IMG/VR virus record: IMGVR_UViG_3300019124_000008
Location: 1 to 61,136 of that record
DNA length: 61,136 nt
Source: a virus
Strand: one strand, 5' to 3'
Numbering within the stretch: position 1 is the stretch's first letter; each line of letters begins with the position of its first letter. The notes below the pieces were generated by a model, which worked only from the letters and a program-made list of their open reading frames with translations, did no database searches and had not been told where the DNA came from. Below, piece by piece: positions 785 through 61,136 of the stretch. A program made the position numbers and the translations under genes.

Positions 785-1906
785 CTACCTTCCGTTTAAG
801 GAAAGACCGCGCACGGCATCGAGTTTCGAGTCGAAGGTCGAGTGCGCGTATTTCTTCAAAAGCGTCTCCGGCGCGTGACCCAAAAGCTCGGCGGCGGTCG
901 ATAAATCGACTCCGTTGTGGAGCATCCGGCTGGCGGCGGTATGGCGAGCCGAGTGCGGCAGAACTCCGTCAGCCAATCCCCTGCCGTATGGCACACCGGC
1001 AAACCGGCAAGCCGCTGCAAGCGACCGATAGAGCCACTTGCTTCGGGGGTCACTCTTCCAGCGCGGAAAGACAAATTCGTTTTCCCGCTTCTCGTACCGG
1101 CGGCGGAAAATCTCGAAGACCTCATCGGTCATCGGAACCTCGCGCATCCGGCGGTGATCGGAGTTCTTGCGCTTCAAAGACCGGACTCGAAGAACCCGGA
1201 AATCGAAGTAAACCTGATTCCACTCCATTGAGAGCAGTTCGGCTCGGCGCATCCCGGTCATCATCGCAATCCGCAGAAAGTCTGCCGAATCTTTCCAAGT
1301 GCGGTATCCGCGAAGCAGCAGGTTCGCTTCTCGCGGCGGGTCTTCCAGCACGGCGAGGATTTTATCAAGTTCCGACTCGGTAATCAATTTGGTGCGCGTT
1401 TTGAACGGCGTCGAGATGTAATTGAACTTCGGCACTTCCCAATCGCCGAGCAGTTCCGGGTTGCGGCGTTTAATCTCATGCAGAGCCTTCTTCAAATACC
1501 GCAGATACATATTGACCGTATCCGGCGCGATTCCCCGCTTCGTCTCGGCTTCGCGCAGAGCGTCGATATGCCGCTCGGAAAGACGAGTCAGTTGCAGATC
1601 GGCTGGCAAGCTCGCGGCAAATTCCTCTAACTTGATCGCTCGGAACCGATTCGCCGAACTCCAGAAATCGACCGCTGCCTCGCGGTGTCGAGCCGCCACC
1701 CGCTTAAGCTCGTCCGAGGCGTACAGGCGCAAGCCATCGGACTTGAACGGAATGCCGTGCTTGGTACTCATCCAGCGGCTCTTGAGAACCGTCACGGCAT
1801 TGTCGGCGTCGGATTTCGTTTTGAAGCCGCTTTTTCGGATACGCTTGCCAACCGGGTCGCGCAGATCGTAACCCCAAGTTCCATTATCGAATTTCTTTAC
1901 TCCCAT
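785..1906 (-). CDS. int: Tyrosine site-specific recombinase (phage integrase)
   Basis: 373-residue tyrosine recombinase that would integrate and excise the phage chromosome. The N-terminus (about 1-45) has the small beta-rich look of an arm-site binding domain. A core-binding helical domain follows (about 75-165). The catalytic domain carries Arg220 in TGMRRAEL, a basic beta-hairpin with Lys near 245-247, HSAR (His318, Arg321), His344 in LLGHAP and nucleophile Tyr353. All key residues are present, so the protein should be active. It is the last gene of a leftward group with the excisionase-like, PAS and repressor genes. The likely attachment region lies just beyond its stop. Confidence 0.95.
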   Translation of the reverse strand: MGVKKFDNGTWGYDLRDPVGKRIRKSGFKTKSDADNAVTVLKSRWMSTKHGIPFKSDGLRLYASDELKRVAARHREAAVDFWSSANRFRAIKLEEFAASLPADLQLTRLSERHIDALREAETKRGIAPDTVNMYLRYLKKALHEIKRRNPELLGDWEVPKFNYISTPFKTRTKLITESELDKILAVLEDPPREANLLLRGYRTWKDSADFLRIAMMTGMRRAELLSMEWNQVYFDFRVLRVRSLKRKNSDHRRMREVPMTDEVFEIFRRRYEKRENEFVFPRWKSDPRSKWLYRSLAAACRFAGVPYGRGLADGVLPHSARHTAASRMLHNGVDLSTAAELLGHAPETLLKKYAHSTFDSKLDAVRGLSLNGR

Positions 1907-1938: not shown

Positions 1939-2172
1939 TTAGATTGCTTTTCCATAAATCGTTTCGCGCATCGACGCGGCTTCCTCGATCTGCTCGCGCT
2001 TAAATTCCTCGACTTCCGACCGGACGAGCCGGACAGACCGACCGAGGCGCACCCGGAGAAGCCGAGCGGTTCCCGCCTTTCCGTTATAGACGGTCTTCGG
2101 CGCGAGCCGGAGCATTTCTGCCGCTTCCGCGACGCTGATTAATTCCTGTTGTTGCTGTTGATGTTGTTCCAT
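1939..2172 (-). CDS. xis: Excisionase-like HTH DNA-binding protein
   Basis: 77 residues. After a glutamine-rich start (residues 2-9, a CAA/CAG run) comes one MerR/Xis-like winged-helix unit (about 11-55), with the typical ISVAEAAEMLRL opening, a TVYNGKAG turn and a basic wing. Small proteins of this kind next to int usually bend attP DNA and direct excision. It lies 32 bp upstream of int in the same direction, so co-transcription is likely. The excisionase role is inferred from family and position. A transcription regulator cannot be excluded. Confidence 0.7.
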   Translation of the reverse strand: MEQHQQQQQELISVAEAAEMLRLAPKTVYNGKAGTARLLRVRLGRSVRLVRSEVEEFKREQIEEAASMRETIYGKAI

Positions 2173-2210: not shown

Positions 2211-3074
2211 TTATCCGATCAAGCCGACTTCCCGGACGCCGCTGATCTTGACTTCGATTTCCTTGTTCTTCGAGACCCGCACGATACCGCTCCACTTGAC
2301 GACGTTGCCGTCATCATCGAGAATCGGCATCGCCGACGACTTGAGCCAGAGCAAGCCGCGCTTGGTGAGCATCGGAAATTCGGCTTCATACGGGTGAAGC
2401 GTTCTGACCGAATGCGACCAAAGCTCGCGCACTTCCTCGCGCCAGTTCGGGTGTATCAGATCGAAGAACCGAAAATCCTCGACGCACGACTCGTCTTCTC
2501 CCCAGATCGACCGGAAATCCTGATGCGGCGGCAGATAGCATCGTCCGTCCGGCGTCGCCTTCCAGAACAACTGCCGCTCCGCGCCGTTCCACGCATCGAC
2601 CGAGCCGAACGTTCGCTTGTCGGCTTGCGTCACCAACCCGACGACCGAGAACCTGTCGGTCAGCGAGCAGTATTCGCGGAACAACGGGTTGTGCGGCTTG
2701 AGATGAAACGTCATTCGGTCGAACCGGACATCGCCGCCGCAGTCGCACGGCACGATCTCTCTGACGACGAGTTGCGAGTAGCCGGATTCACCTTTCGGCT
2801 TGAGAACCATCAGCCGGTTGAGAATCGGCTTTGAGTAGCGGTGCGTGATAAAAATATCACCGGGATGAAAGTCGAGTTGCGCCAGCGATTCGTCGGATAG
2901 TTCGACGGCAAAGCGTCTCTGGACACCCCGCAGCCGCTCGGCGACCGCCGGAATGCGCTTGACCCGATACCATTGCGACTCGGTGGGTTCCGTATCGTAG
3001 ATAGGACTGTTTTTCTTCTCTGAAACTCCGAAAACTGACTGATCTTCGATTTCGGTAAAAAGTGTATCGCTCAT
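2211..3074 (-). CDS. S24 (LexA/CI)-like domain fused to a PAS sensor domain
   Basis: 287 residues without a DNA-binding domain. Residues about 40-155 line up with the C-terminal S24 domain of LexA and CI. Ser63 is followed by Gly-Asp at the same 9-10 residue spacing as the catalytic Ser of LexA, and a later HNPLF and a VVGLV strand match LexA landmarks. The position of the catalytic Lys is Arg105, and no Ala-Gly cleavage site is apparent. Residues about 165-272 form a PAS/PAC domain with FFDLIHPNWREEVRELW, a central EAEFPMLTKRG strand and DDDGNVVKWSGIVRV. It lies between the HTH repressor and xis in one leftward group. Inferred role: a sensory partner of the short repressor, binding a ligand or cofactor. 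Partner and signal are unknown. Confidence 0.6.
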   Translation of the reverse strand: MSDTLFTEIEDQSVFGVSEKKNSPIYDTEPTESQWYRVKRIPAVAERLRGVQRRFAVELSDESLAQLDFHPGDIFITHRYSKPILNRLMVLKPKGESGYSQLVVREIVPCDCGGDVRFDRMTFHLKPHNPLFREYCSLTDRFSVVGLVTQADKRTFGSVDAWNGAERQLFWKATPDGRCYLPPHQDFRSIWGEDESCVEDFRFFDLIHPNWREEVRELWSHSVRTLHPYEAEFPMLTKRGLLWLKSSAMPILDDDGNVVKWSGIVRVSKNKEIEVKISGVREVGLIG

Positions 3075-3144
3075 AAATTATTTATCCCTCTCAAGGTTGT
3101 AGATGTGTATAGACCCGCTTGAATAAAATTAATAATAGTAGTTG

Positions 3145-3588
3145 TTAGTCGTCTTTCAGTTCCTTCATCTCGAAAGGATGCGCTCCGAGAGTCGAATTGG
3201 GAACTTCCCGTTCTGCCTTATAAAGCGGAATAAGCTCCGTATCTTCCTCATCGGACACGCCGACCGCTTTATCTCTATGAGTTGCTTCGATTAAAGATAC
3301 ACGCAGTCGGGTTGCCGGAATTTCAATAAAGATCGCTGTGGGAATAGATGAGCTTAATTTATTTTCCGTTGTTTCCTTTTCGAGAAACATCTCCCCATCT
3401 CCAGTTAAGAGCCAGTTCAGGTTGACGTTCGTGGTTTTTCTAATCTGGACGAGAACTTCGGCACTTGGCATTCTTCCACCGACATAATTTTTAATCGTAT
3501 TATATGGAATATCCGTTAGCCTTGAAATCTCTGCCATATTGTCTGTTCCGCAAACTTCCTGAAGTCTCGTGATAAATTCAGTCGGCAT
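3145..3588 (-). CDS. CI-like repressor, HTH only
   Basis: 147 residues. A Cro/CI-type helix-turn-helix covers about 4-66 (AEISRLTDIPYNTIKNYVGG), followed by the NLNWLLTGDGEM signature common in Gram-negative phage repressors. The usual S24 peptidase domain is absent; only an acidic, probably flexible tail follows. The next gene downstream supplies an S24-like fold in a separate chain. Ribosome site AAAGGAG lies just before the ATG. A leftward promoter can be read upstream (TTGTGT, 17-base spacer, TATAAT, about 3625-3655). It should bind the GCTCA-type operators in the divergent promoter region and keep the prophage silent. Confidence 0.8.
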   Translation of the reverse strand: MPTEFITRLQEVCGTDNMAEISRLTDIPYNTIKNYVGGRMPSAEVLVQIRKTTNVNLNWLLTGDGEMFLEKETTENKLSSSIPTAIFIEIPATRLRVSLIEATHRDKAVGVSDEEDTELIPLYKAEREVPNSTLGAHPFEMKELKDD

Positions 3589-3659
3589 TCTTATCTCCTT
3601 TGGTGTATGGTAGTTAGGTATTTTATTATAATTATATTGTCAAGCTGACACAAGCAGCC

Positions 3660-3745
3660 TGAGTGCTGTTGACAATCTGCTCAATATGAGCTATGATTGG
3701 TTCCGAAGTGGCAGTCAATCTGCTCACATTAAGAAGATAATACAA
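3660..3745 (+). promoter_or_regulatory. Early rightward promoter with repressor operators
   Basis: TTGACA at 3669-3674 and TATGAT at 3692-3697 are separated by 17 bases that contain GCTCA-ATA-TGAGC, a palindrome placed to block RNA polymerase. The sequence CAATCTGCTCA of this site recurs at about 3716-3727, giving a second operator downstream. The divergent repressor promoter lies immediately to the left. This is the classic arrangement of a lysogeny switch. Assignment of the 3145-3588 protein as the ligand is inferred from position. Confidence 0.7.
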
Positions 3746-3810
3746 CCGATAACGCAAAAAAATCAACTAAAACAGGCAGATTTTCAGGGGGAAAATCTAA
3801 ATTAACGACT

Positions 3811-4101
3811 ATGAATAGAAATAAAATTGAAAAGAGTGAAGCAGTTACATCAGACCGTAACAGCTTTCAATTCGTAAGTGAGATTGAAGTGACGACGACG
3901 GCTCGGCAGAAGCCGGACGCGGCGGCGGCATTATTCGACGCATTCGGGGAGTTGCGCGACATTAAACTCGTCACCGGAGAAATGGAAGACACCGAACTCG
4001 CCGATGCCGTCTGGAGAGCCGCCGACCGGGTGCAGATTCTTCTGGAGAATTTCTTCGACTCGACCCAAGAGCCGACCGAAGGGGGTGAGATGGTCGAATG
4101 A
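3811..4101 (+). CDS. Hypothetical early protein
   Basis: 96 residues, first gene of the rightward early transcript. The middle is helical and acidic (DAAAALFDAFGELRDIKLVTG), and the tail is rich in Glu. No family recognised. It overlaps the next gene by four bases (ATGA), so translation is probably coupled. First position after the repressor-controlled promoter is where cro-like or anti-host proteins often sit, but no HTH is visible. Confidence 0.75.
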   Translation: MNRNKIEKSEAVTSDRNSFQFVSEIEVTTTARQKPDAAAALFDAFGELRDIKLVTGEMEDTELADAVWRAADRVQILLENFFDSTQEPTEGGEMVE

Positions 4102-4632: not shown

Positions 4633-4967
4633 TGACGCGGTATTCGGATGACGAAATTATGATCTTTGCCGGTCAGGTCGCCGACGCCGTTCTCAAGAGC
4701 CAGCGGCGTGAATACGAATACGCGCTCGACAAGCTCGACGGCTTCGAGGATATGCTTGACGAGGCGCGGAATGCGGCGGCTGACGAAGCCGAACGGGTCT
4801 TGCGCGATTACGACGGAGCGGCGACTTCCCCGCTGCCGAAAAATCTCTTGATGAAAATGGCGTCATCGGCGAGCTACGTTTTCGCCGAGCGGCTTTACCA
4901 TCTGATTCGGCAGAAGTATCCGTCAAAAAATTTTGCCGATTCGTTACGGGAGAACGTAAACGTATGA
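4632..4967 (+). CDS. Hypothetical helical protein
   Basis: 111 residues, strongly helical and acidic (FEDMLDEARNAAADEAERVLRDYDG), with no membrane segment. Its 3' end contains a class A palindrome (4944-4959) and overlaps the dCMP deaminase start by four bases. Function unknown; context suggests an accessory early gene. Confidence 0.7.
   Translation: MTRYSDDEIMIFAGQVADAVLKSQRREYEYALDKLDGFEDMLDEARNAAADEAERVLRDYDGAATSPLPKNLLMKMASSASYVFAERLYHLIRQKYPSKNFADSLRENVNV
4944..4959 (+). promoter_or_regulatory. Class A palindrome enclosing a ribosome site
   Basis: TTACGGGAGAACGTAA. The outer arms match the class A operator, while the centre is GGGAG, the ribosome site of the deaminase gene that starts at 4964. 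An identical 16-mer precedes the gene at 13190. The double use means that a bound protein could act on DNA, or a fold of the RNA could mask the ribosome site. Confidence 0.5.
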
Positions 4968-5407
4968 CGCAAGAGGAAAAAGACAGGTATTACTTGGACG
5001 AGGCTCGGCGCGTTTCGACGTTGAGCCACGACCCATCGACCCAGACCGGGTGCGTCATCGTCAGCGAGGGTATGCTTCTGACCTACGGCTGGAACCATAT
5101 CCCGCGAGGCAAAGCGGAATGGCTCGCCGACCGAGCGACGAAGCTCAAAGTCGTCACTCATGCCGAGATTCACGCGCTCGCCAGCAACGCGGGTTGGGAT
5201 TTGCGCGGTGCGACCGCCTACATTCATCCTTGGCTTCCCTGCGGGAACTGCTTTTCCGCGTTGGTCGGAGCCGGGATTGAACGGGTCGTCGCGCCGAAGA
5301 TGGATGAGGAAAGCGACCGCTACCGGCGGTGGAAGGATGACTTCGATCTCGTCCGTGAATACGCCGCTCACGCGGGTATCGGATTGGTCGAAATGGAAGT
5401 TACTTGA
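4964..5407 (+). CDS. Deoxycytidylate (dCMP) deaminase family protein
   Basis: 147 residues, the usual size for phage dCMP deaminases. Zinc motif HAE (His66, Glu68) and PCGNC (Cys93, Cys96) are intact, with the ST-QTGC substrate loop near residue 25-30 typical of the family. It would convert dCMP to dUMP and feed dTTP synthesis during phage replication. A deaminase acting on another nucleotide is possible. It ends an early gene string that begins at the repressor-controlled promoter. Confidence 0.85.
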   Translation: MTQEEKDRYYLDEARRVSTLSHDPSTQTGCVIVSEGMLLTYGWNHIPRGKAEWLADRATKLKVVTHAEIHALASNAGWDLRGATAYIHPWLPCGNCFSALVGAGIERVVAPKMDEESDRYRRWKDDFDLVREYAAHAGIGLVEMEVT

Positions 5408-7205: not shown

Positions 7206-7260
7206 CCGTTTGGGTCATCTGGGTCACCGCTATAAGGGATGAACCAAATGACCCAAACGG
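7206..7260. repeat. Intergenic covarying hairpin, copy 3
   Basis: Arms GGGTCATCTGGGTCA and TGAACCAAATGACCC, flanked by CCGTTT and AAACGG, which extend the stem. Located after the SSB gene and 55 bp before the primase-helicase start. See the copies at 11956, 15443, 20585, 25160, 27239, 31984, 37794, 43737, 49557 and 56043. Confidence 0.85.
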
Positions 7261-11955: not shown

Positions 11956-12009
11956 GGTTCGGGTCATCCGGGTCATCACTATAAGCGATGACCCAAGTGA
12001 CCCAAAAAG
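11956..12009. repeat. Intergenic covarying hairpin, copy 4
   Basis: Arms GGGTCATCCGGGTCATC and GATGACCCAAGTGACCC around a CACTATAAGC tip. Placed between the lipoprotein gene and the membrane protein gene at 12025. Confidence 0.85.
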
Positions 12010-13200: not shown

Positions 13201-13537
13201 CTTTGAAGAGCTTTTCAAGCAAGTTCCGGTGACGAAGAAGAGATCGGAGAAAGAGCGCAAATCCGCGCTTCATTTCGCCAGCCGGTTGATCGACCTGATC
13301 GCCGAGGCGAAGCAGAATGAAGTGAGCGATTACGAAATGGTCGAACACGCGCTGACGACGCTCCGCGCCGAGCCGAGCCTTCTTGTCGAGGAAGAGTTCA
13401 CCGCTGCGGGAAGCCGGGTAATCGAGTGGGATGACCAAGGAAAGCCGCTCGCCGCCGAGTATGAGCCGGATGAAGAAGAGGTAATCGGCGAAGCCGACGA
13501 GCCGAAAGGGGGTAAACGGAAAAATGAGCGGAAATAG
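13190..13537 (+). CDS. Hypothetical acidic protein
   Basis: 115 residues. A basic first third (VTKKRSEKERKSALHFASRL), an acidic middle and end (EYEPDEEEVIGEADEPK) and a lysine-rich tip. No family recognised. Overlaps the deoxyribosyltransferase-like gene by 14 bp. Confidence 0.65.
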   Translation: MNINFEELFKQVPVTKKRSEKERKSALHFASRLIDLIAEAKQNEVSDYEMVEHALTTLRAEPSLLVEEEFTAAGSRVIEWDDQGKPLAAEYEPDEEEVIGEADEPKGGKRKNERK

Positions 13538-13982
13538 TCCGACCGTTTATCTTGCCGGAGCGATTACCGGCGAGCGTTACGACGGAGCGACCGATTGGCG
13601 CGAGCGCGTTGCCACCGAGCTTGATTACGTCGGGATTACCGCCTTTTCGCCGATGCGCGGCAAGGAATATCTCGACACGGAAAAGCCGATTGCGGCTGAA
13701 TACTCGGACAGGATTCTCTCGAACAGCCGAGCGATTATGACGCGGGATTTCTTCGACGTTCGCCGCGCCGATCTGCTGCTCGTCAATCTGCTCGGAACCC
13801 GCAAGGCGTCAATCGGAACGACGATGGAGATTGCGTGGGGTTATCAGTTACAGAAGCCGATTGTGCTTGTGATGGAGCCGGAGAACGTGCATAACCATCC
13901 GATGATTCGTGAAGCGGTCGGCTATTGGGTTGAGAGCTTGGACGACGCCGTGTATGTCGCCAAGAGCGTATTACTGCCGTAA
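13524..13982 (+). CDS. Nucleoside 2-deoxyribosyltransferase-like protein
   Basis: 152 residues with the Rossmann-like pattern of the family: VYLAGAI at the start, DFFDVRRADLLLVNLLG, then SIGTTMEIAWGYQLQKPIVLV, in which Glu of TTMEIAWG is the expected nucleophile. The domain is complete in length. Enzymes of this family exchange bases on deoxynucleosides; phage copies occur in nucleotide salvage and base modification. Substrate cannot be predicted. It sits with the dATP/dGTP diphosphohydrolase-like gene. Confidence 0.75.
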   Translation: MSGNSPTVYLAGAITGERYDGATDWRERVATELDYVGITAFSPMRGKEYLDTEKPIAAEYSDRILSNSRAIMTRDFFDVRRADLLLVNLLGTRKASIGTTMEIAWGYQLQKPIVLVMEPENVHNHPMIREAVGYWVESLDDAVYVAKSVLLP

Positions 13983-14013: not shown

Positions 14014-14469
14014 ATGAGTAGCTTATTAGATGCAATCAGACGGGAAGAACAGCAACAACAGGAAACCAAGGCGAAGGTTCTCGGATTCGATTTGGCGACC
14101 GGCAACCCGATCACCGAAGACGATCTGAAAGCCGGGTTCAAGGCTGACGCTGGCAAGGCGAGAATCGACCTCATCCCGGCAGACGTTTTGATGGAACTCG
14201 GCAAGCTGTACGCCAAGGGAGCGGAAAAGTACGCCGACAACAACTGGAAGCTCGGCATGGACTACGGTCGGGTCTATTCGGCGATGATGCGCCACGCTCT
14301 CAAGTTCTGGAGCGGCGAAGAGTTCGACCCGGACGGTCAGCATCATCTCGATTCGGTCATCTGGAACGCGATCACGCTGCGGTACTTCCAGCTTCACCGG
14401 GAAAAATACGCGCAGTTTGACGACCGCAACCGCGAGCCGGTGCGAGCCGAGGAAAAGGGTCAGAAGTAA
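14014..14469 (+). CDS. dATP/dGTP diphosphohydrolase-like protein (DUF5664 type)
   Basis: 151 residues. The signature DAGKARIDLIPADVLMELGKLYAKGAEKY-ADNNW and the later MMRHALKFWSGEEFD and HHLDSVIWNA match the MazG-like all-alpha dGTP/dATP pyrophosphohydrolase family (PF18909). It would trim purine deoxynucleotide pools. Related MazZ enzymes serve phages that replace adenine, but the other genes of that pathway are not seen here. A glutamine-rich stretch lies near residue 13. Confidence 0.75.
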   Translation: MSSLLDAIRREEQQQQETKAKVLGFDLATGNPITEDDLKAGFKADAGKARIDLIPADVLMELGKLYAKGAEKYADNNWKLGMDYGRVYSAMMRHALKFWSGEEFDPDGQHHLDSVIWNAITLRYFQLHREKYAQFDDRNREPVRAEEKGQK

Positions 14470-15442: not shown

Positions 15443-15492
15443 TTTTGGGTCATCCGGGTCATCGCTATAAGGGATGACCCAAGTGAGCCAAA
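15443..15492. repeat. Intergenic covarying hairpin, copy 5
   Basis: Arms GGGTCATCCGGGTCATCG and GATGACCCAAGTGAGCC around TATAA. Lies between the phosphoesterase gene and the gene at 15550. Confidence 0.85.
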
Positions 15493-20584: not shown

Positions 20585-20637
20585 GGTTTGGTTCATCTGG
20601 GTCACGGCTATAAGCGATGACCCGGATGACCCAAAAT
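20585..20637. repeat. Intergenic covarying hairpin, copy 6
   Basis: Arms GGTTCATCTGGGTCA and TGACCCGGATGACCC, directly after the polymerase stop. The outer arm keeps one mismatch; the inner arm pairs fully. Confidence 0.8.
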
Positions 20638-25153: not shown

Positions 25154-25159
25154 GGAAAA

Positions 25160-25207
25160 CGGGTCATCTGGGTCATCGCTATAAGGGATGACCCAAGTGA
25201 CCCAAAA
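25160..25207. repeat. Intergenic covarying hairpin, copy 7
   Basis: GGGTCATCTGGGTCATCG with GATGACCCAAGTGACCC around CTATAAGG. The clearest consensus copy. Confidence 0.85.
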
Positions 25208-27238: not shown

Positions 27239-27290
27239 GTTTTGGGTCATCTGGGTCACCGCCATTAGTGCTGACCCAAGTGACCCGTTT
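27239..27290. repeat. Intergenic covarying hairpin, copy 8
   Basis: GGGTCATCTGGGTCACC with GCTGACCCAAGTGACCC. The tip is CGCCATTAGTGC rather than CGCTATAAGCG, so the apex has drifted while the arms are kept. Confidence 0.8.
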
Positions 27291-31983: not shown

Positions 31984-32040
31984 TTTTTGGGTCATCTGGG
32001 TCACCGCTTATAGCGATGAACCAAGTGACCCAAAATTTTT
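31984..32040. repeat. Intergenic covarying hairpin, copy 9
   Basis: GGGTCATCTGGGTCACCGC with GCGATGAACCAAGTGACCC, ending AAAATTTTT. The T run makes this copy resemble a terminator for the endolysin gene. Confidence 0.85.
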
Positions 32041-37008: not shown

Positions 37009-37590
37009 ATGAAAAAGATTACGAAAGTCACCGACCTCGACCTCGACCGGCGCAACGCCAATCGCGGTTCGGTGCGCGGAACTGCCGCTTTGGAAGAATC
37101 AATTACCCGGTATGGTGCGGGTCGTTCGGTTCTCGCCGACAAACACGGACGAATCATCGCCGGAAACACGACGACCGAAGTGTATGTCGGGATGGGAATG
37201 GAAGATGTCATCGTCGTTCCGACTGACGGGTCGAAACTCGTCGTCGTCCAGCGCACCGATCTCGATTTAGAGCGCGACAAAGCAGCCAGAGAACTCGCTC
37301 ACGCCGACAACCGCATCAATCAGATCGGCTACACGCCGGACGTTAATATGATCGAAGCGGATATGGTCGCCGGAGCCGATCTCGGCTGGTTGTGGCGCAA
37401 CGACGAGATCGAGGCGATGAAAGGCGTTGCACCGCCGCTCGAAGGCTCGGAGATCGACGCGATTCAGAACATGGACAAACTTCCCCGCTCCGACCGCAGC
37501 GAATACGAATTGACGGTCGTTTGCGAGTCTCAGGCGAGGCTCGATGAGGCGCGTCGGCTGCTTCAGGACAACGGATTCTACACCAAATAA
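37009..37590 (+). CDS. ParB-like nuclease-fold protein
   Basis: 193 residues. The first half has the ParB/Srx pattern: DLDLDRRNANRGSVRGTAALEESITRYGAGRSVLADKHGRIIAGNTTTE, including the GxGR-type loop. The usual HTH of chromosomal ParB is not seen. Phage copies often lie upstream of terminase and may act on DNA ends or regulate packaging. No ParA is present, so partition is unlikely. Confidence 0.75.
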   Translation: MKKITKVTDLDLDRRNANRGSVRGTAALEESITRYGAGRSVLADKHGRIIAGNTTTEVYVGMGMEDVIVVPTDGSKLVVVQRTDLDLERDKAARELAHADNRINQIGYTPDVNMIEADMVAGADLGWLWRNDEIEAMKGVAPPLEGSEIDAIQNMDKLPRSDRSEYELTVVCESQARLDEARRLLQDNGFYTK

Positions 37591-37793: not shown

Positions 37794-37848
37794 AATTTTG
37801 GTTCATTTGGGTCATCGCTTATAGCGGTGACCCGGATGAACCAATTTT
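37794..37848. repeat. Intergenic covarying hairpin, copy 10
   Basis: GGTTCATTTGGGTCATCGC with GCGGTGACCCGGATGAACC. The outer arm has GGTTCA facing TGAACC in place of GGGTCA facing TGACCC, a compensatory pair change. AATTTTT follows. Confidence 0.85.
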
Positions 37849-43736: not shown

Positions 43737-43789
43737 TTTTGGGTCATTTGGTTCATCACTATAACGGGTGAACCAAGTGACCCAAATTT
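43737..43789. repeat. Intergenic covarying hairpin, copy 11
   Basis: GGGTCATTTGGTTCATCAC with GGGTGAACCAAGTGACCC. The inner arm shows the GGTTCA/TGAACC compensatory change. The class A site TTACATTCTAACGTAA (43835-43850) follows before the scaffold gene. Confidence 0.85.
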
Positions 43790-49556: not shown

Positions 49557-49609
49557 TTTTGGGTCATTTGGTTCACCGCTATATGCGATGACCCAGATGA
49601 CCCAAATTT
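49557..49609. repeat. Intergenic covarying hairpin, copy 12
   Basis: GGGTCATTTGGTTCACCGC with GCGATGACCCAGATGACCC. The inner GGTTCA faces TGACCC (one T-C mismatch); the outer arm pairs fully. Confidence 0.8.
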
Positions 49610-56042: not shown

Positions 56043-56108
56043 AAACGACGAATGGCTCACTTGGTTCATCACTATAACGGGTGAGCCAAATGAGCCATTC
56101 GTCGTTTG
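56043..56108. repeat. Intergenic covarying hairpin, copy 13 (long-stem variant)
   Basis: The outer arm is GGCTCA facing TGAGCC, a third pair type at the same place (C-G instead of G-C or T-A). Flanks AACGACGAAT and ATTCGTCGTT extend the stem well beyond other copies. Lies between the tape measure and the L-like gene. Confidence 0.85.
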
Positions 56109-56154: not shown

Positions 56155-57297
56155 ATGCCAATTGAAAACTTTCCTTCCAGACTTAAAACTCTGCTCGACC
56201 TCGGCTGGATTCACACCTACCCGGCAATCGACATCACGCTCTCGGACGGAACCGAGCTTCATTACTCGACCGTTGACATCGAGTTCGACGGAACTGTTTA
56301 CGAATCGAGACTGAAGTCGGTCGGCGCGATCAAAACGACCTTAAACTCGGCGGTCAACCGCTGCGAGATGAAATTCGACAACTCGGATTTGGCGGTCGGC
56401 GATGCGCTCGACGGCGGCGACATTGACGATCTGCTCGACAACGCCAAGGCGATTGTTTACCGCATTTATGTGAACATCGACAACCATGACGAAAAGTGGC
56501 GCATCGAGCGGATTTCAGGTATCGTTCAGGCGAGTGTCGAAGACGAGTCCGACGAAGTGAATTTGACGGTCGTCGGTCACGCTTATGCCGGTGGCGGCGT
56601 GGCGAAATATACGGTCAAGCGCAACTGCGTCTGGGATTACAAAGATGGCGTCAACTGCCGCTACTCCGGTGCGCTCGCAACGTGCGATCTGTCGTTCGAC
56701 GGAGTGAACGGGTGCGTCGTGCATTTCGGCTCGACCGAAGAGGCGAAGGCGAACTTCGGCGGCGGTGCGCGTGATCTCGATGAGGAAACCCGACAGGCGC
56801 ATCAGTCGAATACGGGGAGCGGCGGCGGAACCGTCATTATCGCTCCCGGCGGCAATTGCTTCATTGCCGGAACGCGAGTCGATCTCTCGAAGAGGCTTTC
56901 GCTTCCGATTGAATTGATCGAGCCGCGCATGACCATCGAATCGGTCAACCGCACGACGTTCTCGACCCGGCGCGATACGGTCGTGGATACGTTCGAGGCT
57001 GACGCCGAGCGCATCGTCATGCTTCAGTTCAAAAGCGGCGTGGAGATTGGCGTCGTGCCGACGCATCCGTTTCTCGTCGCGCCGGACGAGTTCGAGACGG
57101 CAGACGAGCTTTATATCGGCGCGGAACTTCCCCGCGAAATCGAAGGCAGATGGACGACCGACCGATTGATTGGAAAGACGTACCTCGAAGGAAAGTTTCG
57201 GGTCTATAACCTTCACGCGCTTTATAACAACACCTACAAGGTCTTCGGCTTTCCGGTCAAAAACAATAAGTCACCTTACGAAATCAACACTTACTAA
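56155..57297 (+). CDS. L-like tail tip protein with C-terminal Hint domain
   Basis: 380 residues. Residues 1-205 follow the lambda L / DUF2163 (BR0599) type: a beta domain, then Cys158-x9-Cys168-x8-Cys177-x9-Cys187, the set that holds a [4Fe-4S] cluster in lambda gpL, ending FGSTEEAKANFGGG. After a glycine linker a Hint (hedgehog/intein) domain begins at Cys235 (GNCFIAGTRVDL). It has THPFLV near 303 and a closing VYNLHALYNNTYKVFGFPV strand. The usual final His-Asn is VKNN, so splicing is doubtful but thioester-based cleavage before Cys235 is possible. It lies between the tape measure and the hub. Confidence 0.8.
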   Translation: MPIENFPSRLKTLLDLGWIHTYPAIDITLSDGTELHYSTVDIEFDGTVYESRLKSVGAIKTTLNSAVNRCEMKFDNSDLAVGDALDGGDIDDLLDNAKAIVYRIYVNIDNHDEKWRIERISGIVQASVEDESDEVNLTVVGHAYAGGGVAKYTVKRNCVWDYKDGVNCRYSGALATCDLSFDGVNGCVVHFGSTEEAKANFGGGARDLDEETRQAHQSNTGSGGGTVIIAPGGNCFIAGTRVDLSKRLSLPIELIEPRMTIESVNRTTFSTRRDTVVDTFEADAERIVMLQFKSGVEIGVVPTHPFLVAPDEFETADELYIGAELPREIEGRWTTDRLIGKTYLEGKFRVYNLHALYNNTYKVFGFPVKNNKSPYEINTY

Positions 57298-60785: not shown

Positions 60786-60812
60786 CGGGGAGTCGTTCGG
60801 CTCCCCTTTTTT
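60786..60812 (+). terminator. Strong intrinsic terminator of the tail operon
   Basis: GGGGAG(TC) with (GG)CTCCCC around GTTC, followed by seven T. Its right half is also the first bases of the window (position 1), showing that the window was opened here. Confidence 0.9.
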
Positions 60813-61136
60813 TATTGCCGGGAATTGAATAGAGGCGCGTCTGAGCGCGTTTCTCGAAAAAAGACGACCGATTACCTTCAAACGTAATTCAAAGCAGCGA
60901 GAGACGCCTTTACGCGCCAATATGAAGCCGCTACGGGTTACATTAAAGCGGGAATGCCCGGTCTCGCCAAGGAAGCTGCCGAAGCGGAGTTTTCAATTTT
61001 GGGTCATCTGGGTCACGCCTATTATAAATGAACCAAATGAACCAAAGAAGAAAACTTTAGGTTTTTCTTCCAAAGGTTCTTCTTTTAAGAGAAAAGCCGG
61101 GGAAGATCACCCCCCCCCGGCATTTTGGGTCATCTG
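60798..61136. repeat. Terminal direct repeat, right copy
   Basis: Right-hand copy of 1-336, three bases longer through homopolymers. Nothing else is present between the end of the last tail gene (60780) and the end of the window except the terminator at 60786-60812 and one intergenic hairpin (about 60997-61048). Joining the two copies gives a circle of about 60.8 kb, in which the tail operon runs toward the attachment and integrase region. Confidence 0.9.

Follow-up and report, generated by a model that had tools for sequence, protein, structure and literature searches.

A CI-type repressor gene beside a gene for an S24-like/PAS protein: a candidate two-protein lysogeny-control module in a phage genome

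In most studied prophages, DNA damage leads to induction through self-cleavage of the S24 domain. The locus analysed here raises the question of how lysogeny might be controlled when a CI-type DNA-binding domain is encoded by one gene, and an S24-like fold joined to a PAS domain by the next. The window, by which we mean the whole stretch of virus DNA that was analysed, comprises 61,136 nt (IMG/VR record IMGVR_UViG_3300019124_000008, positions 1 to 61,136). Its first 336 bases recur at the 3' end with 99% identity (1-336 versus about 60798-61136), the copies showing homopolymer differences, and this terminal repeat makes it probable that the record spans a whole genome of about 60.8 kb with a circular or circularly permuted form, the class given in the record being linear. 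Four closely spaced genes form a leftward array at the left end of the window, encoding the HTH protein, the S24/PAS protein, an HTH_17 protein and an integrase. The features of this array and of the adjoining control region are as follows:

785..1906, minus strand: tyrosine integrase, 373 aa, final gene of the leftward array (domain matches)
1939..2172, minus strand: HTH_17 excisionase-like protein, 77 aa, next in the leftward array (domain matches)
2211..3074, minus strand: 287-aa protein, S24-like (LexA/UmuD-type) plus PAS_3 (profile and Pfam matches)
2280..2516, minus strand: PAS_3 domain, residues 187-265 of the 287-aa protein (Pfam)
2625..3005, minus strand: S24-like domain, residues 24-150 (profiles, alignment and model)
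2760-2762 and 2886-2888, minus strand: codons for Arg105 and Ser63, respectively, of the 287-aa protein
3085-3092, minus strand: RBS of the gene for the 287-aa protein, GAGAGGGA (read from the sequence)
3145..3588, minus strand: predicted CI-type HTH repressor, 147 aa (Pfam and PHROG matches)
3595-3601, minus strand: RBS of the HTH gene, AAAGGAG (read from the sequence)
3625..3653, minus strand: candidate promoter of the HTH operon, TTGTGT-17-TATAAT, 9/12 (by eye)
3669..3697, plus strand: strong sigma-70-like promoter, TTGACA-17-TATGAT, 11/12, candidate early lytic promoter (promoter scan)
3679..3691, no strand: perfect palindrome GCTCAATATGAGC in the spacer of that promoter, candidate operator
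3716..3734, no strand: degenerate second copy, CAATCTGCTCACATTAAGA, of CAATCTGCTCAATATGAGC, whose first copy starts at 3673

The original prediction, which took the first two genes of the array for a lysogeny repressor split in two, gave the ORFs 3145-3588 and 2211-3074 their correct coordinates and strand. They adjoin on the same strand with a gap of 70 nt and each has a good RBS. A frameshift or a broken single gene was ruled out, since the two RBSs are separate and nothing S24-like is encoded across the gap in any frame.

The HTH protein is a predicted DNA-binding repressor of the CI type. Its residues 5-68 match the Pfam family Phage_CI_repr (4.4e-10), and the protein also matches the transcriptional repressors of PHROG (1.9e-12); it carries the CI/Cro HTH domain expected of a CI-type phage repressor. 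The claim that the protein is devoid of a peptidase domain was confirmed. On the other hand, the protein does not end after the WLLTGDGEM motif, as had been stated: the motif occupies residues 59-67 and is followed by about 80 more residues. This tail contains ELIPLYKAEREVP, whose weak resemblance to the opening strand of an S24 domain was given little weight, being matched by 39 of 5000 shuffles and seen with one of the three profiles tried. The closest phage relatives of the HTH protein retrieved by tblastn are single-chain HTH-S24 repressors of the Mu-like/RcWaterboi type, which have in common with this locus the HTH domain and a repressor gene facing a divergent operon. In these repressors the S24 domain belongs to the same chain, whereas here the HTH protein stops at 147 aa without the S24 domain present in its CI-type relatives, and the S24-like fold is found with PAS on a second gene.

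The strong rightward promoter occupies the interval that separates the HTH gene from the first gene read to the right and points away from the former, so that the palindromic candidate operator overlaps a divergent early promoter. The leftward candidate promoter has a perfect TATAAT at 3625-3630 and a -35 element below the scan threshold. As far as can be read from the DNA, this is the layout of an ordinary CI-type switch, in which the palindrome at 3679-3691 would be the site of the repressor. The order of the genes and the candidate operator are in keeping with the lysogeny switch of a temperate phage.

The presence of a full PAS domain in the 287-aa protein was confirmed by its match to PF08447 (PAS_3, residues 187-265), which scores 35.5 bits against a Pfam cut-off of 25.6; judged by this match, the domain is genuine beyond reasonable doubt. 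Matches to the PAS family name no ligand. A domain search of the 287-aa protein found no kinase, cyclase or other output domain 3' of PAS_3, which would therefore have to act through the neighbouring domain. In ICEBs1-type elements a cI-like HTH repressor, ImmR, is controlled by the product of the neighbouring gene, ImmA (PMC10233336 and related papers). ImmA is a metalloprotease, whereas the 287-aa protein showed no metalloprotease domain in a domain search at E values up to 5.

The other, N-terminal half of the 287-aa protein had been proposed to line up with the C-terminal domain of LexA/CI. The Pfam S24 model does not match residues 24-150, so that the S24-like call lies below Pfam detection and the likeness emerged from sensitive methods, pointing to LexA/UmuD rather than to CI. 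UmuD was the sole match among the 18,950 models of NCBIfam (residues 31-165, E 0.032, model positions 27-112 of 115). A LexA/UmuD profile, built from the LexA and UmuD of E. coli together with 30 S24 proteins of a single bacterial phylum, matched this half with p 2.2e-5, none of 3000 shuffles scoring as well, and the hhalign probability was 73% with this profile and 83% with phage repressors added. Since the profile of Mu/CI-type repressor C-domains was much weaker (p 0.009, reached by 30 of 3000 shuffles), the resemblance appears to be on the LexA/UmuD side. AlphaFold2 was uninformative from the single sequence (pLDDT 33); from an alignment with 30 UmuD-like proteins taken from viral contigs it gave a model with a mean pLDDT of 61 and core blocks at 74-80. 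In a PDB search with this model, LexA, UmuD and lambda CI account for every one of the best 40 matches (lowest E 3.3e-4), in agreement with the fold proposed. The model depends on the alignment, whose UmuD-like rows bias it toward the UmuD fold; the sequence statistics have no such dependence. Support for a LexA/UmuD-type fold, drawn from the two kinds of profile comparison, the UmuD match and the PDB matches, is indirect.

Ser63, Gly72-Asp73 and Arg105 are all present as described. The alignment with the UmuD-like proteins runs ungapped from Ser63, in register with their catalytic Ser, through Gly72-Asp73. Arg105 had been assigned to the place of the catalytic Lys; there is indeed no Lys, but that column of the alignment is occupied by Ser100, and by Arg105 if the strand is shifted. 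Moreover, residues 24-40 lack the usual Ala-Gly/Cys-Gly cleavage segment (VPAGFPSP in UmuD), most of which has been lost. Both the Lys and the cleavage site are needed for self-cleavage in the established chemistry of the S24 family. Because both are missing, self-cleavage has probably been lost, as had been supposed, and we do not file the 287-aa protein among the self-cleaving S24 proteins, of whose defining features it retains the catalytic Ser and, on indirect support, the fold. Its likeness to LexA, UmuD and lambda CI extends to the fold, Ser63, the Gly-Asp motif, the L-x-P-x-N-P and V-x-G-x-V strands and a Ser63-to-Arg105 spacing of 42, between those from Ser to Lys in LexA (37) and lambda CI (43). 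It differs from them in the absence of the catalytic Lys, the cleavage segment and a DNA-binding domain on the same chain, and in the addition of PAS. To judge from the sequence, an S24-type fold with PAS beside a short HTH repressor is an unusual combination.

The original prediction had also suggested looking for the same gene pair in other prophages. No relative with both genes was found among phage records, viral contigs and sampled genomes, the pair being seen in one genome only. The 287-aa protein had no match among 50,697 phage records at E values up to 1, and neither the whole protein nor its halves found relatives in scans of viral contigs or bacterial genome contigs, which were seeded on exact short words and so miss distant relatives; the viral contigs likewise contained no relatives of the HTH protein. 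Plasmids yielded only the PAS domains of other proteins. In genomes sampled from two phyla (sets of 297 and 396 for the first, 395 for the second) the PAS matches all lay in long frames, none shorter than 498 aa. Several apparent matches were discarded as chance: three hits of the S24-like fragment in sampled genomes, of which one fell in an ABC transporter and two had no convincing frame, and two matches that consisted of a 20-residue resemblance inside an unrelated protein. Relatives of the terminase occur in 28 viral contigs (42-54%), which share with this phage no more than scattered genes for structural proteins or nucleases and therefore say nothing about the switch; the PAS protein had no relatives in 18 records or genomes reached through the terminase, nor did the HTH or PAS protein match any of 16 viral records among the terminase relatives, most of them fragments. 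Given the limited sensitivity of these scans, the absence of relatives is weak evidence. Nothing relevant on PAS with S24, or on phage-encoded PAS in prophage induction, was found in the open-access literature.

The composition of the two genes bears on whether they are parts of one repressor. The HTH gene and the operator region form a low-GC island at about 3000-3900 (about 0.37-0.47), and the GC3 of the HTH gene (0.43) is lower than that of any other among the 67 ORFs (mean 0.64, SD 0.08), whereas that of the S24/PAS gene (0.73) is ordinary for the phage. Because of this difference the two genes probably have different histories, which speaks against their descent from a single repressor that came apart. 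What stands of the split repressor is that the HTH and the S24-like fold are on two chains, with PAS fused to the latter; a common origin of the chains is disfavoured by their GC3 values. Phages often swap their immunity regions as cassettes. If this one was exchanged alone, the partners of the S24/PAS protein would have to be many different repressors or else another molecule, e.g. host LexA.

The explanation that we prefer, tentatively and at less than even confidence, is that the S24/PAS protein acts as a regulatory partner of the phage HTH repressor in a lysogeny-control module. The short CI-type HTH protein would repress the rightward early promoter by binding to DNA; the downstream protein, from the same gene array, would be a separate, non-cleaving regulator that most likely acts by protein contact, its S24-like half docking on the repressor, helping or hindering the assembly of the latter on the operator, and its PAS half making this contact depend on a small molecule or cofactor. 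That the two proteins touch, with what effect, and that a signal is involved are inferences, and sensing by PAS and induction through it are likewise putative. The S24 fold dimerises in LexA, UmuD and CI, and a partnership is economical because the HTH protein lacks a C-terminal domain and the next gene supplies this dimerising fold together with a PAS domain without output. Against it, the pair comes from one genome only, with no conserved linkage in support, the sharp break in composition between the HTH gene and its neighbour would fit an immunity cassette swapped by itself, and UmuD-like rows steered the AlphaFold2 model. The S24 half is also nearer to LexA/UmuD than to CI, so that a host protein may be what it naturally pairs with. 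A target of this kind, an S24 protein of the LexA/UmuD type, is possible though doubtful: the phage protein would be a non-cleavable subunit forming mixed dimers, which couples the phage to the SOS response or shields it from it, with the HTH protein repressing alone. Besides the closeness of the fold to LexA/UmuD, two things speak for it: of 60 genomes sampled from one bacterial phylum, 56 encode S24 proteins, and there is a precedent in the temperate phage GIL01, whose gp7 is reported to bind host LexA, to strengthen the binding of LexA to DNA and to inhibit LexA auto-cleavage (PMC4551915). GIL01 resembles our candidate in a two-protein control that includes an S24 protein, and differs in that the partner is host LexA and that the abstract describes no PAS protein (PMC4551915). 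The position of the gene within the repressor-integrase array suggests instead a role in the phage switch. That the phage repressor is put ahead of a host protein with such restraint reflects a contact that is only a candidate, a pair seen once and the break in composition.

Other readings are less probable. Lysogenic operons often carry accessory genes, and with the HTH protein as sole repressor the S24/PAS gene could be one of these, apart from the switch, altering for instance host signalling. The composition break and the PAS matches, which are to PAS domains of large bacterial sensor-type proteins, agree with this, but we consider it unlikely, as the protein has no effector domain and an S24-like domain beside a CI-type gene would be a striking coincidence if the two were unrelated in function. 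It is tempting to speculate on a two-chain, signal-gated repressor, with the HTH subunit on DNA and a cleavage-dead S24/PAS subunit responsible for oligomerisation and for sensing a metabolite or cofactor. In this picture, which we regard as decidedly unlikely, the HTH tail ELIPLYKAEREVP would dock in place of the partner's missing cleavage-site strand, and induction would be chemical rather than RecA-driven. An antirepressor that strips the HTH protein from the operator when PAS is occupied would have an anatomy identical to that of the preferred partner, and in phage VP882 the PAS receptor VqmA acts in the lysis decision by triggering the antirepressor Qtip (PMC8284805). Yet a protein sharing the array of the repressor would be made during lysogeny and need strict ligand gating, and VqmA is itself a DNA-binding transcription activator, so we hold this to be very unlikely. 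Most improbable is that the S24-like similarity arose by chance and residues 24-160 adopt another small beta fold; Pfam silence, the uninformative single-sequence model and the use of UmuD rows in the better one would fit, but three sensitive sequence tests concur on family and register, and the spacing from Ser to Gly-Asp is ungapped.

If the 287-aa protein is indeed a regulatory partner of the repressor, the S24 fold would have been kept, its chemistry dropped and a PAS sensor attached, i.e. a fold re-used for another signal, and this phage, like VP882, might let the chemistry of its host bear on the decision to lyse. Both encode a PAS protein linked to that decision, the link here being a candidate; unlike the 287-aa protein, VqmA is a single-chain PAS-HTH activator that works via a separate antirepressor and has no S24 fold (PMC8284805).

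Elsewhere in the window, an imperfect palindrome of 48 bp, of about TTTGGGTCATCTGGGTCAcCGCTATAAGcGATGAcCCAAgTGACCCAA and with two GGGTCA-type half-sites per arm, occurs in 13 copies (200-247, 324-371, 7209-7256, 11958-12005, 15444-15491, 20587-20634, 25159-25205, 27241-27288, 31986-32033, 37797-37844, 43738-43785, 49558-49605 and 56052-56098). The copies are spread genome-wide, mostly 2-7 kb apart, several of them directly upstream of rightward genes; none was found in 5 shuffles, and the exact 15-mer core was present in none of 266 comparison loci. It could be a dispersed operator ('stoperator'), a promoter or a partition site, the last option being touched by a ParB-like gene at 37009-37590. 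Genes for nucleotide metabolism at 4964-5407, 13524-13982 and 14014-14469 (dCMP deaminase-like, nucleoside deoxyribosyltransferase-like and dATP/dGTP diphosphohydrolase N-terminal domain) may be a sign that nucleotide pools are altered or the DNA is modified. Finally, the tail-region protein encoded at 56155-57297 contains a candidate Hint/intein-type domain, recognized by eye, from GNCFIAGTRVDLSKRLSLPIELIEPRM to near VFGFPVKNNK.
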